Below the pieces are notes generated by a model. The model made no database searches. It was not told where the DNA came from and saw only the letters and a list, made by a program, of their open reading frames with translations. Source: a bacterium (GTDB lineage Bacteria > Actinomycetota > Acidimicrobiia > Spongiisociales > Spongiisociaceae). From it: a stretch of DNA of 45,067 nt. Below are positions 6,418 to 10,798 of this stretch, piece after piece. Made by a program: the position numbers and the translations under genes. Numbering within the stretch: position 1 is the stretch's first letter; each line of letters begins with the position of its first letter. Where the stretch lies: positions 1 through 45,067 of the forward strand of contig JAPPHZ010000046.1 of NCBI GenBank assembly GCA_028820935.1, written 5' to 3'.

Positions 6418-7320
6418 CTAGTCGGGGACCGGCCAGAGCCATGCCGCCCCCAGGACGCCCCCGGAGTCGCCGTGCCGGTTCCTTGCCAGGCGGGTGGCCA
6501 CGCCATCGGAGAATATCCACTTTCCCCACCTTTGCGGCACCTCCTCGTACAGTTGATCCACGTTCGACAAGCCGCCGCCCAGGACCACGACCTCGGGATC
6601 GAGGACGTTGATCACTACCGCCAGGGCCCTCGCCAGGCGAGTGGCGTAGTGATCGAAGACAGCGGCGGCGACCGCGTCGCCATCGATACGATCCATGACC
6701 TGCTCAGCCGTCAGTTCCATCCCGCCGGATCGCCGGTACTCACCGGCCACCGCCGGACCGGACAGGTAGACCTCCACGCAGTCGGTCCTCCCGCAGTAGC
6801 AGGCCCGCCCGTCCATCTCGGCGGGTTGGGGGTTGTGACCCCATTCCCCCGCAATGCGGTTGGGGCCGGCATGGAGGGTCCGGTCGATCACCAGGCCGCC
6901 GCCCACGCCGGTTCCCAGGATCACGCCGAACACGGTCCCGGCCCCGACGCCTGCTCCGGTGACGGCCTCGGCCAGGGCGAAGCAGTCGGCGTCGTTGGCC
7001 AGCCGCACCGGCCGTCCCAGAGCGGCTTCCAGGTCGCCATCCAGGGGTCGGTCGTTCAGCGCCACCGAGTTGGCGTTCCGCAGCAGCCCCGAGAAAGGGG
7101 AGATGGCTCCGGGCGTTCCGATCCCGACGGTGCCCTGCCCTCCGACGCGGTCCTCCACCTCGCGGATCAGCTCCACGACCGCTCGGACGGTGCCCTCGTA
7201 GTCTCCGGACGGCGTGGGAACCCGCTTCCTGACCAGCACGCGCCCGCCGGGGTCGAGCACGGCGCCCTCTATCTTGGTGCCACCCAGGTCGATCCCGACC
7301 CGGAGCCCACCCCCGCTCAT
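6418..7320 (-). CDS. ROK-family sugar kinase (glucokinase/fructokinase type)
   Basis: ATP-dependent sugar kinase or ROK regulator. The 300-residue protein has the phosphate-binding DLGGTKIEGAV at residue 11, the sugar-binding NDADCFALAE and GEWGHNP blocks, and the ROK zinc site CYCGRTDC after GH. There is no N-terminal helix-turn-helix, so it is a kinase rather than a repressor. The exact sugar cannot be told; the glucokinase/fructokinase/N-acetylmannosamine kinase range is open. The ATG start overlaps the lnt stop as ATGA (7317-7320), so the two are probably translated together. The longer upstream frame lies within lnt and is not used. Confidence 0.92.
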   Translation of the reverse strand: MSGGGLRVGIDLGGTKIEGAVLDPGGRVLVRKRVPTPSGDYEGTVRAVVELIREVEDRVGGQGTVGIGTPGAISPFSGLLRNANSVALNDRPLDGDLEAALGRPVRLANDADCFALAEAVTGAGVGAGTVFGVILGTGVGGGLVIDRTLHAGPNRIAGEWGHNPQPAEMDGRACYCGRTDCVEVYLSGPAVAGEYRRSGGMELTAEQVMDRIDGDAVAAAVFDHYATRLARALAVVINVLDPEVVVLGGGLSNVDQLYEEVPQRWGKWIFSDGVATRLARNRHGDSGGVLGAAWLWPVPD

Positions 7321-8795
7321 GCCCGTTCTTCTCTCCTGATGAAGCCGGCGACCCGCAGCCCCAGATAGGCGAGCATCGCCCCGACCTGGAGCCAATCGCC
7401 CCAGCGGACGTAGAGGGTGGGGCCCGCCGTCCGGGCCGCGGGGACGCCGGCGGCGGTGGTGGTCTCGAAGAGCTCGGTCCGGCTCTCCACCCGCCCGTCG
7501 GCGTGGACGAAGGCGGATTTGCCGGTAACCGCGGCGTGCACCAGGTCCACTCCCAGCTCCGCCGCTCTCATCCGGCTGATGGCGATCATCTGGTCGCTGG
7601 CCGGTGTCCTGCCGAAGGATGCCTCGTTGGTCGCCAGCACCAGGAACGCCGCTCCCGCCCGCACCGCCTCCCGCTCGTAGCGGGCGTAGGCCCCTTCGTA
7701 ACTGATGACGGATCCGAACCGGACTCCGTCGAGGTCGAACAGCACCTGCTCCCGGCCCCGGACCATGTCCCGGGGTACCCGGTCGAGGGCCGGCACCACC
7801 TGGAAGATGGGGCGGAGGGGCACGTACTCGCCGAACGGTACCGGGTGCCGTTTGCGGTAGGTGCCGACGATGGCGCCGCTCGGCCCGAAGACCACGTTGA
7901 CGTTGTCGAAGTGACCGGGGCCCGCGTCCAGGTCTCCCCCCACCAGGAGCGTTGCGTCAAGCCGGACGGCCTCGGCGCCGATGGCCCTGGCCACATCGGG
8001 ATCCCGGAGCGGGTCGGCGCTGCCTCCGGTGGAACTCTCGGGCCAGACCACCAGGTCCGGACCGGGTTCCAGAGCGCGGGTCAGCGCCAGGTGGCTCTCG
8101 TAGATGAGCCGGCGTTCGCCCAGGCACCGCGTCCCGGGGCAGGGCGAGTTCCCCTGCACGATCGTCACCGACCGCGTCTCCCCTTCAGGCACCGCCGGCC
8201 AGACGTTCCCGGCCAGCCCCAGGATCACCACACCTCCGGCTACGGCCGCCAGGACCTTCCAGGACAGGCGGCGGCGTAGCACCAGCACCACCACCGCCGC
8301 CACGGCCGCCAGCAGGACTCCCCAGCCGGTGGCTCCGATCCACTGGGCGGAGGGCCGGAGGGGCGTGGCGCCGGCCATGACGCCGATCGATCCCCAGGGA
8401 AAGCCGCCGAAGGGCCACCGCACCCGCAGGAACTCCGCCAGCGCCCCCGCTCCCGCCGTCGCCAGCACGAACGTCCAGGGGGCGGCGTCCCGGTAGCGGA
8501 ATATCCCGCCGGCAGCGATGAGGAAGGCCAGGGCCTGCACCATCGCCAGGGGGTAGTAGGCGATCAGTTCCACCTCGATGAGCCAGGAGAGGATGACTGC
8601 GAAGTAGGCCAGCCCGAACAGGTAGCCGGACCACAGGGCAACCGCTCGGGTGCCGGCCGTCGCCACCAGCCAGACGAATCCCACCAGGCCCAACCAGGCG
8701 AGGGAGGTCCACTCGTACGGCGGGTAGCCGAGAGCCAGCAGGATGCCCGCCAGCAACGCGCCGACCAGCCGCAGGGTTGTCACCGTCCGTGCCAC
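7317..8795 (-). CDS. lnt: Apolipoprotein N-acyltransferase, catalytic Cys replaced by Ser
   Basis: Lnt adds the third acyl chain to lipoproteins at the outer face of the cytoplasmic membrane. The 492-residue protein has several N-terminal membrane segments (about residues 8-195) followed by a nitrilase-like domain. The catalytic glutamate (VVWPES, E253) and lysine (GTYRKRHPVPFGEY, K315) are present, but the position of the nucleophile, normally in a CYE-type motif, reads VISYEG with Ser365, encoded AGT; one base change from TGT. The enzyme may therefore be inactive or altered. GTG start with a TACAAT -10 box 7 nt upstream; the ROK kinase follows with an ATGA overlap. Confidence 0.88.
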   Translation of the reverse strand: MARTVTTLRLVGALLAGILLALGYPPYEWTSLAWLGLVGFVWLVATAGTRAVALWSGYLFGLAYFAVILSWLIEVELIAYYPLAMVQALAFLIAAGGIFRYRDAAPWTFVLATAGAGALAEFLRVRWPFGGFPWGSIGVMAGATPLRPSAQWIGATGWGVLLAAVAAVVVLVLRRRLSWKVLAAVAGGVVILGLAGNVWPAVPEGETRSVTIVQGNSPCPGTRCLGERRLIYESHLALTRALEPGPDLVVWPESSTGGSADPLRDPDVARAIGAEAVRLDATLLVGGDLDAGPGHFDNVNVVFGPSGAIVGTYRKRHPVPFGEYVPLRPIFQVVPALDRVPRDMVRGREQVLFDLDGVRFGSVISYEGAYARYEREAVRAGAAFLVLATNEASFGRTPASDQMIAISRMRAAELGVDLVHAAVTGKSAFVHADGRVESRTELFETTTAAGVPAARTAGPTLYVRWGDWLQVGAMLAYLGLRVAGFIRREERA

Positions 8796-8808: not shown

Positions 8809-8870
8809 CGTAGTCGTCTCGCAGCGCTTGGCAGGGCGTTCCATTACCCGGAATCGCGCGTGTCGGGCCG

Positions 8871-8876
8871 TAAGAT
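8871..8876 (+). promoter_or_regulatory. Possible -10 box for the IMPase-like gene
   Basis: TAAGAT matches TANNNT and would start a transcript near 8883, giving about 100 nt of leader that contains the nine-codon upstream frame at 8957-8986. No clear -35 hexamer. Confidence 0.3.
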
Positions 8877-8955
8877 GATGCCCGATCACGCACCGGATGC
8901 AACGGCGGGGCTACGCGCCCCAGCCCTCATCCGTAGCCGAGTCCAAGGAGCCCAC

Positions 8956-8975
8956 AGTGGTCTGTCTGCGAAACA
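8956..8975 (+). repeat. Second copy of the 20-bp sequence from the window start
   Basis: AGTGGTCTGTCTGCGAAACA at 8956-8975 is identical to 33-52. Here it lies within the leader of the IMPase-like gene and supplies most of a nine-codon upstream frame. A 20-bp exact match in a 45-kb window is not expected by chance, so it is a dispersed short repeat or a shared regulatory element. Confidence 0.7.
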
Positions 8976-8986
8976 ACCCGGCGTGA
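8957..8986 (+). CDS. Putative nine-residue leader peptide upstream of the IMPase-like gene
   Basis: GTG at 8957 follows AAGGAG (8945-8950) with a 6-nt spacer and encodes MVCLRNNPA; its TGA at 8984-8986 overlaps the GTG at 8983 as GTGA. The downstream gene has no Shine-Dalgarno sequence of its own at that start. The arrangement is the same as upstream of dnaB. Translation and regulatory role are inferred; the peptide contains a single cysteine and arginine, not a run of one amino acid, so classical attenuation is not evident. Confidence 0.4.
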   Translation: MVCLRNNPA

Positions 8987-9810
8987 CTCCCGGAGTTCCG
9001 GACGTCGACCTGCGGACCGACCTGGACGTGGCGATCGCCGCGGCGCGCGCCGGCGCCCGAGTGGTGCGCCGGTCGTTCGGGCGGGATATCGACCCGGACC
9101 TCAAGAGCGTGGTCGATCCGGTGACGGAGGTGGACCGGGCCGCCGAGGCGGCCATCCGGGACGTCCTGAGCGCCATGCGCCCCGAGGACGAAGTGCTGGG
9201 CGAGGAGGGGGGCGGCCAGACCGAGGCCGTAGGGCGGCGGTGGATCGTGGATCCGCTTGACGGCACCATCAACTTCCTGCACGGCCACCCGCACGTGTCC
9301 ACTTCCGTGGGGCTCTGGGACGGGGACGAGCCGGTGGCGGGCGTCGTGGTCGATGTGATGCGGCAAGAGATGTTCACCGCGGCCCGCGGGCAGGGCGCCT
9401 ACCTGGACGGTCGGCCCATCCGGGTCTCCTCCAAGACCAGGCTCCAGGAATGCCTGGTCGGAACCGGATTCCCCTACGACCGCCACCTGAACGGTCCGGC
9501 CTACACCGCCGCGGCGGGAGAGGTGATGAAGCGGGTGCGGGACATACGCAGGCTCGGATCGGCCGCTCTGGACTTCGCCTGGGTGGCCTGCGGGCGTTTT
9601 GACGGGTTCTGGGAGTTCGGCATCTATCCGTGGGATGTGGCGGCGGGATTGTTGCTGGTCGAGGAAGCAGGCGGGTTGACGGCCGACATGACGACGAGCC
9701 CGGCCAGGGTGGACTCCACCCACTTCATCATCGCCGGGCCCGGTATATACGAACCCCTGGTGGACCTGATCCGCTCGGTTGCCCCACCCCATGTTCGGGC
9801 CGGTACTTGA
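8983..9810 (+). CDS. Inositol monophosphatase family protein
   Basis: Mg-dependent phosphatase of the IMPase/CysQ/histidinol-phosphatase superfamily. From GTG at 8983 the protein has 275 residues with metal-binding GEEGGG (about 73-78), the signature WIVDPLDGTINF (about 87-98) and the late WDVAAG motif, all intact. Substrate could be inositol-1-phosphate, histidinol phosphate or PAP; the sequence does not settle this. The frame is open to an ATG pair at 8875/8878, but that extension is not family-like. The chosen start overlaps the stop of a nine-codon frame. The DUF695-like gene follows with overlap or close spacing. Confidence 0.88.
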   Translation: MTPGVPDVDLRTDLDVAIAAARAGARVVRRSFGRDIDPDLKSVVDPVTEVDRAAEAAIRDVLSAMRPEDEVLGEEGGGQTEAVGRRWIVDPLDGTINFLHGHPHVSTSVGLWDGDEPVAGVVVDVMRQEMFTAARGQGAYLDGRPIRVSSKTRLQECLVGTGFPYDRHLNGPAYTAAAGEVMKRVRDIRRLGSAALDFAWVACGRFDGFWEFGIYPWDVAAGLLLVEEAGGLTADMTTSPARVDSTHFIIAGPGIYEPLVDLIRSVAPPHVRAGT

Positions 9811-10798
9811 GCGGCCGGACCGGGCTGGTTCCCTCCCGGTGACGGCCGGCGATGCCATCGCGGCGTTCTGGCGGGGATGGCCTCTGCTGCGGGACTTGCT
9901 GGAACAGGAACTGGCCCAGGGCGAGTACGGGGACGGCACCGAGCAGCTGACGGACCTCACCGAGGCGATCGATCCCGGACTCGAGTGGGATCTGCTGCCG
10001 GGACTCGAAGCCCGGCACGCGCTCTGTCTGAGCGCCGCCTCGGACCCCGCTCTGCGACCCCTCACCGAGCAGTGGGTTCGGGCTGCGCCCGAACCTGATG
10101 GCGCTTGGGAGTACCACCCGGCGCGGGTCTCCGTCCCGCCGGTCGCGCTCGCGGTGGGGAACCTCCGCATACATCCGCGCGATGTCCTGGTGGTGATCGA
10201 GCCCGACCAGAGCCGCGAGGAGTTGAACCTGACGGTCGGCCATCCCGACTTCGGCGGCTTGGATGAAGTCCTGCAGCTCCAGGTGGTGTTCCGTCTCCTG
10301 GACGACCTCCTGGGCGAGGACCTCATGGAGAGCTGGGTCGGGTCGGTGGATGTGGTCCCCCATCCGCTTTCCTGGGGGGTGCCGCTACTCGATCTGGCGG
10401 ACGAGATCGATCGCCACTCGGGCGTGGCCACGGGTCAGAGGTGGGAGTTCATCGAGGAGGAGGACGAGGATCTGGGGGACAGCCGGCTCTTCATCAACCG
10501 GGCCCTCAAGAGGCTCGACCACCTGGACCTGGACTTCGTGGTGACGGTCAGCATCGAGGTGCAGTCGTTCGATCCGGTGCTGGTCAGGGAGGTGGAGAAG
10601 GACCTGGCCGAGTCCCTGGGCACCGAGGGCGTGATCTACGCCCATAGAGCCTTCGATGACTTCACCGTGCTCTACGCCTACGTGGGGGAGGGAGTGGCCG
10701 ACGACGTCCGGCGGCTGGCCGACCGCTGGTCTCCTCAGGTCTACGAGGTGATGGTCGAGCCCGATCCCGCGTGGGACACCTACGAGGACATGCGCTAG
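9791..10798 (+). CDS. Uncharacterised protein with DUF695-like C-terminal part
   Basis: Soluble protein of about 335 residues without signal peptide or membrane helix. The first 210 residues are acidic and Leu-rich (for example LEWDLLPGLEARHALCLSA), a segment I do not recognise. After RWEFIEEEDEDLGD the sequence DFVVTVSIEVQSFDPVLVREVEKDL, GVIYAHRAFDDFTVLYAYV and the ending EPDPAWDTYEDMR resembles DUF695 proteins, which are sometimes found with RraB-like domains. No catalytic motif is visible. The start is uncertain: ATG 9791 overlaps the previous gene by 20 bp, GTG 9839 would not. It lies between the IMPase-like and M3 peptidase genes on the same strand. Confidence 0.7.
   Translation: MFGPVLERPDRAGSLPVTAGDAIAAFWRGWPLLRDLLEQELAQGEYGDGTEQLTDLTEAIDPGLEWDLLPGLEARHALCLSAASDPALRPLTEQWVRAAPEPDGAWEYHPARVSVPPVALAVGNLRIHPRDVLVVIEPDQSREELNLTVGHPDFGGLDEVLQLQVVFRLLDDLLGEDLMESWVGSVDVVPHPLSWGVPLLDLADEIDRHSGVATGQRWEFIEEEDEDLGDSRLFINRALKRLDHLDLDFVVTVSIEVQSFDPVLVREVEKDLAESLGTEGVIYAHRAFDDFTVLYAYVGEGVADDVRRLADRWSPQVYEVMVEPDPAWDTYEDMR

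Follow-up and report, generated by a model that had tools for sequence, protein, structure and literature searches.

In the nitrilase superfamily, cysteine is the standard nucleophile. Apolipoprotein N-acyltransferase (Lnt) attaches the third fatty acid of bacterial lipoproteins. In the Lnt of E. coli, Glu267 activates Cys387, Lys335 helps to form the oxyanion hole, and the resulting thioester acyl-enzyme hands its acyl group to the amine of the lipoprotein (PMC5500890; PMC6971011). A further residue of the E. coli enzyme, Trp237, is essential for the transfer step only (PMC6971011). When Cys387 is replaced by serine (C387S), an oxygen-ester acyl-enzyme is formed but no acyl group is transferred to apolipoprotein (PMC6828757), and the mutant has also been termed 'low activity' (PMC10313180). 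A natural cysteine-to-serine exchange at position 387 has been described in BCG_2279c of M. bovis BCG and its M. tuberculosis counterpart Rv2262c-Rv2261c, where BCG_2279c is a second Lnt copy unable to replace the Cys copy (PMC3850990). A search of the open-access literature turned up neither a sole Ser-Lnt, nor activity data for one, nor a clade of Ser-Lnts, and within the same scope it found no paper that mentions Acidimicrobiia alongside both lipoprotein and apolipoprotein N-acyltransferase.

The lnt gene of the window and its active site

The window, meaning the whole 45,067-nt stretch that was analysed, belongs to the family Spongiisociaceae of the order Spongiisociales (class Acidimicrobiia), referred to below as the home family and home order. 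Its Lnt homologue (Table 1) scores 207.2 bits against TIGR00546 lnt, above the curated cut-off of 132.9, and a profile search matched both the LNT_N and the CN_hydrolase domain, so that the open reading frame is a full-length Lnt and the sequence-only reading was right to take it for an Lnt. The AlphaFold2 model (pLDDT 96.5, pTM 0.94) resembles the Lnts of E. coli and P. aeruginosa over near-full length, with Z about 40, rmsd about 2.5 Å and about 24% identity.

Table 1. Positions of the lnt gene, its active-site features and its neighbours in the window
Feature	Position	Strand	Basis
Lnt homologue, 492 aa, GTG start; N-terminal membrane domain and nitrilase domain	7317..8795	-	ORF, profiles, model
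Ser365 (codon AGT), nucleophile position (E. coli Cys387)	7701..7703	-	sequence, alignment
Glu367 (E. coli Glu389), invariant among Ser-Lnts	7695..7697	-	alignment
Glu323 (E. coli Glu343, Lnt 'fourth catalytic residue')	7827..7829	-	alignment
Lys315 (codon AAA; E. coli Lys335)	7851..7853	-	alignment
Glu253 (codon GAG; E. coli Glu267, general base)	8037..8039	-	alignment
Glu391 (E. coli Asp413); position Asn/Asp in most Cys-Lnts, almost never in Ser-Lnts	7623..7625	-	alignment
Arm-7 loop C219-P-G-T-R-C224, in place of the loop with E. coli Trp237	8124..8141	-	alignment
ROK-family sugar kinase; start overlaps lnt stop (ATGA, 7317-7320)	6418..7320	-	sequence
Inositol-monophosphatase-family (IMPase) gene, divergent lnt neighbour	8866..9810	+	neighbourhood comparison

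Alignment pairs E253, K315, E323, S365, Y366 and E367 of the window protein with E267, K335, E343, C387, Y388 and E389 of the E. coli enzyme. The catalytic glutamate and lysine are thus intact, as had been claimed, while the equivalent of the catalytic Cys387 is absent. Alignment and AlphaFold2 model agree in placing Ser365, whose codon is one base from the Cys codon TGT, at the nucleophile position, and neither puts a different cysteine there. For want of Cys387 the protein is placed in the Lnt family as a serine variant and not as a classical Cys-Lnt. Its only conserved cysteines, 219 and 224, lie on the loop that matches Arm 7 of E. coli Lnt. They were considered as a substitute nucleophile and rejected as a general one, because the pair is absent from three other groups of Ser-Lnts (clades B, C and D, described below) and is kept in a genus, g8, whose Lnt bears cysteine.

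A second, Cys-bearing Lnt that does the job is ruled out, since a search of the genome found no other protein above the Lnt cut-off; seven other CN_hydrolase proteins fall below it. The window gene is therefore the sole Lnt, and nearly all relatives likewise have only one. Of 59 relatives sampled at ranks up to the order, 55 have an Lnt, and the aligned Lnts of these relatives all carry serine except in two closely related genomes of genus g8, which carry cysteine. Family f12, with genomes of 0.9-1.1 Mb, retains Lnt as a single match. A tandem arrangement was seen in one genome (G041), whose two Lnts (L373 and L045) share 46% and 38% identity with the window protein and both have serine at the nucleophile position. 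Elsewhere in the class, a search at E 1e-12 found no Lnt in several near-complete genomes of families f23, f16 and f44, genus g79 among them, which suggests that parts of the class can do without Lnt.

The overlap of the kinase start with the lnt stop agrees with the earlier suggestion of coupling, and lnt and the downstream ROK kinase are probably translationally coupled; the kinase stands beside lnt only in the home family. On the other side, the divergent lnt-IMPase arrangement recurs throughout the order and is absent in genus g8. Because this synteny is common to the order, it supports the view that lnt is a single vertically inherited locus there. A 339-aa neighbour gene at 9779-10798 is kept in the home family and has no Pfam match.

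Distribution of serine and cysteine at the nucleophile position

Class-wide and phylum-wide samples of Actinomycetota yielded 304 distinct Lnt proteins, in which the nucleophile column holds serine (136) or cysteine (168) and no other residue. The equivalents of E253, K315, E323 and E367 are intact in all 136 Ser-Lnts. Serine conservation among related Lnts had been set beforehand as a check on the window gene, and in clade A, formed by the home order and family f12 with its genomes of about 1 Mb, 109 of 111 distinct Lnts have it. Further Ser-Lnts were found in families f9, f18, f28, f29, f42 and f43 of the same class (clade B), in a pair from f84 and f91, in f54 (clade C) and in the second Lnt copy (L302, L303) of f76 genomes whose first copy has cysteine (clade D). 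Far from clade A on the tree, these f76 copies group most closely with second copies of f71/f66 that bear cysteine, and they are probably of the mycobacterial BCG_2279c type. Within clade A, the only Cys-bearing Lnts (L039, L040 and L374, from genomes G018 and G025 of genus g8) keep the Arm-7 Cys pair and lack the lnt-IMPase neighbourhood.

Trees were built without the nucleophile column. The best trees require five changes between serine and cysteine (bootstrap range 5-5), three of them forced by well-supported branches. Approximately unbiased (AU) tests left two other arrangements standing: a single clade of A, B and f84/f91 (p-AU 0.113), and a tree on which the Cys-bearing g8 proteins branch outside the serine-bearing part of clade A (p-AU 0.273). 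The first of these values defeats any claim that four independent origins of serine are established. The tree shows serine in as many as four places. From these topologies, more than one origin and a return of g8 to cysteine are likely, and on account of both p-AU values they are put no higher than that.

The codons of the nucleophile add a second line of observation. In the home family the serine is encoded by AGY in 13 of 14 cases, and by TCN in most other Ser-Lnts. On a tree built from the Ser proteins with FastTree, switches between TCN and AGY number at least five in clade A and at least three in clade B, serine being kept throughout. Each such switch needs either a double change or an intermediate cysteine or threonine; at the nucleophile column threonine was never seen and cysteine was. 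The switches are compatible with a transient tolerance of cysteine, reminiscent of an old idea about active-site serines, reportedly Brenner's two serines, in which cysteine is tolerated in passing.

Two other features were compared with the distribution of serine. The C219-P-x-x-x-C224 pair is present in 110 of 111 clade A Lnts, the exception being a fragment, and also in the f84/f91 Ser pair and the g8 Cys proteins; it may form a disulfide that stiffens the arm bearing Trp237 in E. coli. Loss of Trp237 itself is not linked to serine, since most other actinobacterial Lnts, Cys-Lnts included, lack this residue too. At the position of E. coli Asp413, Asn or Asp occurs in 151 of 168 Cys-Lnts, and among the 136 Ser-Lnts Asn occurs in five and Asp in none, as raw counts that ignore tree structure. 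The g8 Cys-Lnts have Glu there. This position is a candidate compensating site.

Possible functions of the serine proteins

The window protein is predicted, with moderate confidence, to function as an apolipoprotein N-acyltransferase whose nucleophile is serine in place of cysteine. Ser365 would give an acyl-serine oxyester intermediate, whose acyl group would then be transferred efficiently to the amine of the lipoprotein. This reading is favoured because the other catalytic residues are kept, because the protein is usually the sole Lnt and because it is retained in very small genomes. Also in its favour are the near-constant serine of clade A, the low dN/dS given below, the shared lnt-IMPase synteny, the match of the model to E. 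coli Lnt, the codon switches made without loss of serine and the oxygen-ester acyl-enzyme that E. coli C387S does form (PMC6828757). Two published results weigh against it: the E. coli C387S enzyme achieves no acyl transfer to apolipoprotein (PMC6828757), and the Ser-bearing BCG_2279c fails to replace its Cys paralogue (PMC3850990).

The state of the lipoprotein pathway in the home genome also bears on this prediction. LspA is present with its NxxDR and FNxAD motifs, and a lipobox was found in at least 13 of 20 SBP_bac_5 proteins. However, the only Lgt homologue of the home genome (L333, G000:C42:87697-88479) is divergent, which counts against a working Ser-Lnt. It scores 64.9 bits against TIGR00544, below the cut-off of 118.9, and has His for Tyr26, Asp for Asn146 and Asp for Glu243 of E. 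coli Lgt. Classical Lgt copies of relatives keep Asn146 and Glu243, and Tyr26 in the few that were checked. In the home genus no Lgt homologue was found other than the divergent form (L333, L359-L361, L363, L364, L366 and L368-L372), which in many other genomes of the order stands beside a classical Lgt; in the single-contig genome G034 it is the stronger of two weak Lgt homologues. This divergent protein may represent a new type of functional Lgt or have another role. Since lipidation in the home genus rests on this protein, the upstream Lgt step is uncertain.

An active enzyme with a different second step, in which the acyl-serine passes to water (a phospholipase), to a hydroxyl or to some other acceptor instead of the apolipoprotein amine, is considered unlikely. 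Such an enzyme would match the E. coli serine mutant, which performs the first step and not the second (PMC6828757), and would accord with the absence from the window Lnt of Trp237, required for the second step only (PMC6971011), in a loop remodelled with a Cys pair. However, Trp237 is missing from actinobacterial Cys-Lnts as well, and the mycobacterial Cys-Lnt is a proven N-acyltransferase (PMC3850990). Moreover, the profile score of the window protein is that of an Lnt equivalog, and the Ser proteins keep the equivalents of Glu343, the aromatic residue at 388 and Glu389.

Loss of catalysis altogether is quite improbable. A pseudo-enzyme, which the sequence-only reading had offered beside an assembly error and a serine-dependent variant, or a scaffold or other accessory protein would have a precedent in the contributory role suggested for BCG_2279c (PMC3850990), but the window gene is the only Lnt of its genome. 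A dead active site should also drift, yet the nucleophile column is always serine or cysteine, and every Ser-Lnt has the remaining catalytic residues unchanged. The serine-dependent variant is therefore the best supported of the three options, as a prediction.

It is very doubtful that serine and cysteine are nearly interchangeable in this active site, so that the choice between them would drift in a nearly neutral way and say little about the mechanism. The TCN/AGY switches, at least eight in all, and the one Cys genus inside or beside clade A would fit such drift. Nevertheless, serine is kept in nearly all clade A members, and the state does not drift freely, since the tree shows about 5 changes where shuffled Ser/Cys labels give about 24 to 44.

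A sequencing or assembly error, or a single decaying allele, is practically excluded despite AGT being one base from TGT, because serine occurs at the nucleophile position in nine of nine other genomes of the genus (77-98% identity to the window protein), encoded there by the synonymous codons AGT or AGC, also in independent genomes of 91-98% identity, and by TCN codons across the order. The within-genus dN/dS of lnt is 0.11-0.19, so the earlier impression of an otherwise intact gene with no sign of decay holds. As judged from these sequences, the serine is fixed and under selection in lnt.

Significance and comparison with known systems

What is new here is the clade-wide serine in a sole Lnt, the conserved Arm-7 Cys pair and the repeated TCN/AGY codon switches. 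It is an evenly balanced proposition that lipoprotein N-acylation in the whole order, and in one to three further actinobacterial groups, relies on a naturally occurring serine as nucleophile and proceeds by way of an oxyester, in a fold whose cysteine is otherwise known as obligate and at a site passed between TCN, AGY and TGY codons. If true, this would be a possible living case of interconversion between serine and cysteine in an active site, and an Lnt resistant to thiol-reactive inhibitors would be predicted. A clade that lives with serine means either that the cysteine rule drawn from E. coli mutants depends on context or that the protein has another role; if the rule is context-dependent, the question becomes what permits aminolysis of an oxyester. 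The Ser- and Cys-Lnts form a natural series for studying Cys/Ser exchange in active sites.

Compared with the Lnts of E. coli and P. aeruginosa (TIGR00546; PDB 5n6h, 6nwr, 8b0l), the window protein has the same two-domain fold from end to end and likewise carries the Glu, the Lys and the equivalents of Glu343, an aromatic residue at Tyr388 and Glu389. It differs in having a serine nucleophile where the known enzymes have cysteine, in the conserved Cys pair of Arm 7 and in lacking Trp237 and Trp415, as many other actinobacterial Lnts do. The Glu-Lys-nucleophile arrangement and the domain fold are shared with the nitrilase superfamily (CN_hydrolase, PF00795), but the serine forms among the structures listed are engineered mutants, whereas the serine of the window protein is natural. 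The E. coli C387S mutant (PDB 5vrh, 8b0m) has the same residue in the same place; it was made in the laboratory and its N-acyl transfer is low or absent, whereas the window protein is a natural, sole and conserved Lnt. BCG_2279c and Rv2262c-Rv2261c share the natural serine at the nucleophile position, but BCG_2279c is a second copy beside a functional Cys-Lnt, whereas the window gene is the only Lnt of its genome, and the window protein falls in clade A while the f76 second copy groups with the second copies of f71/f66.
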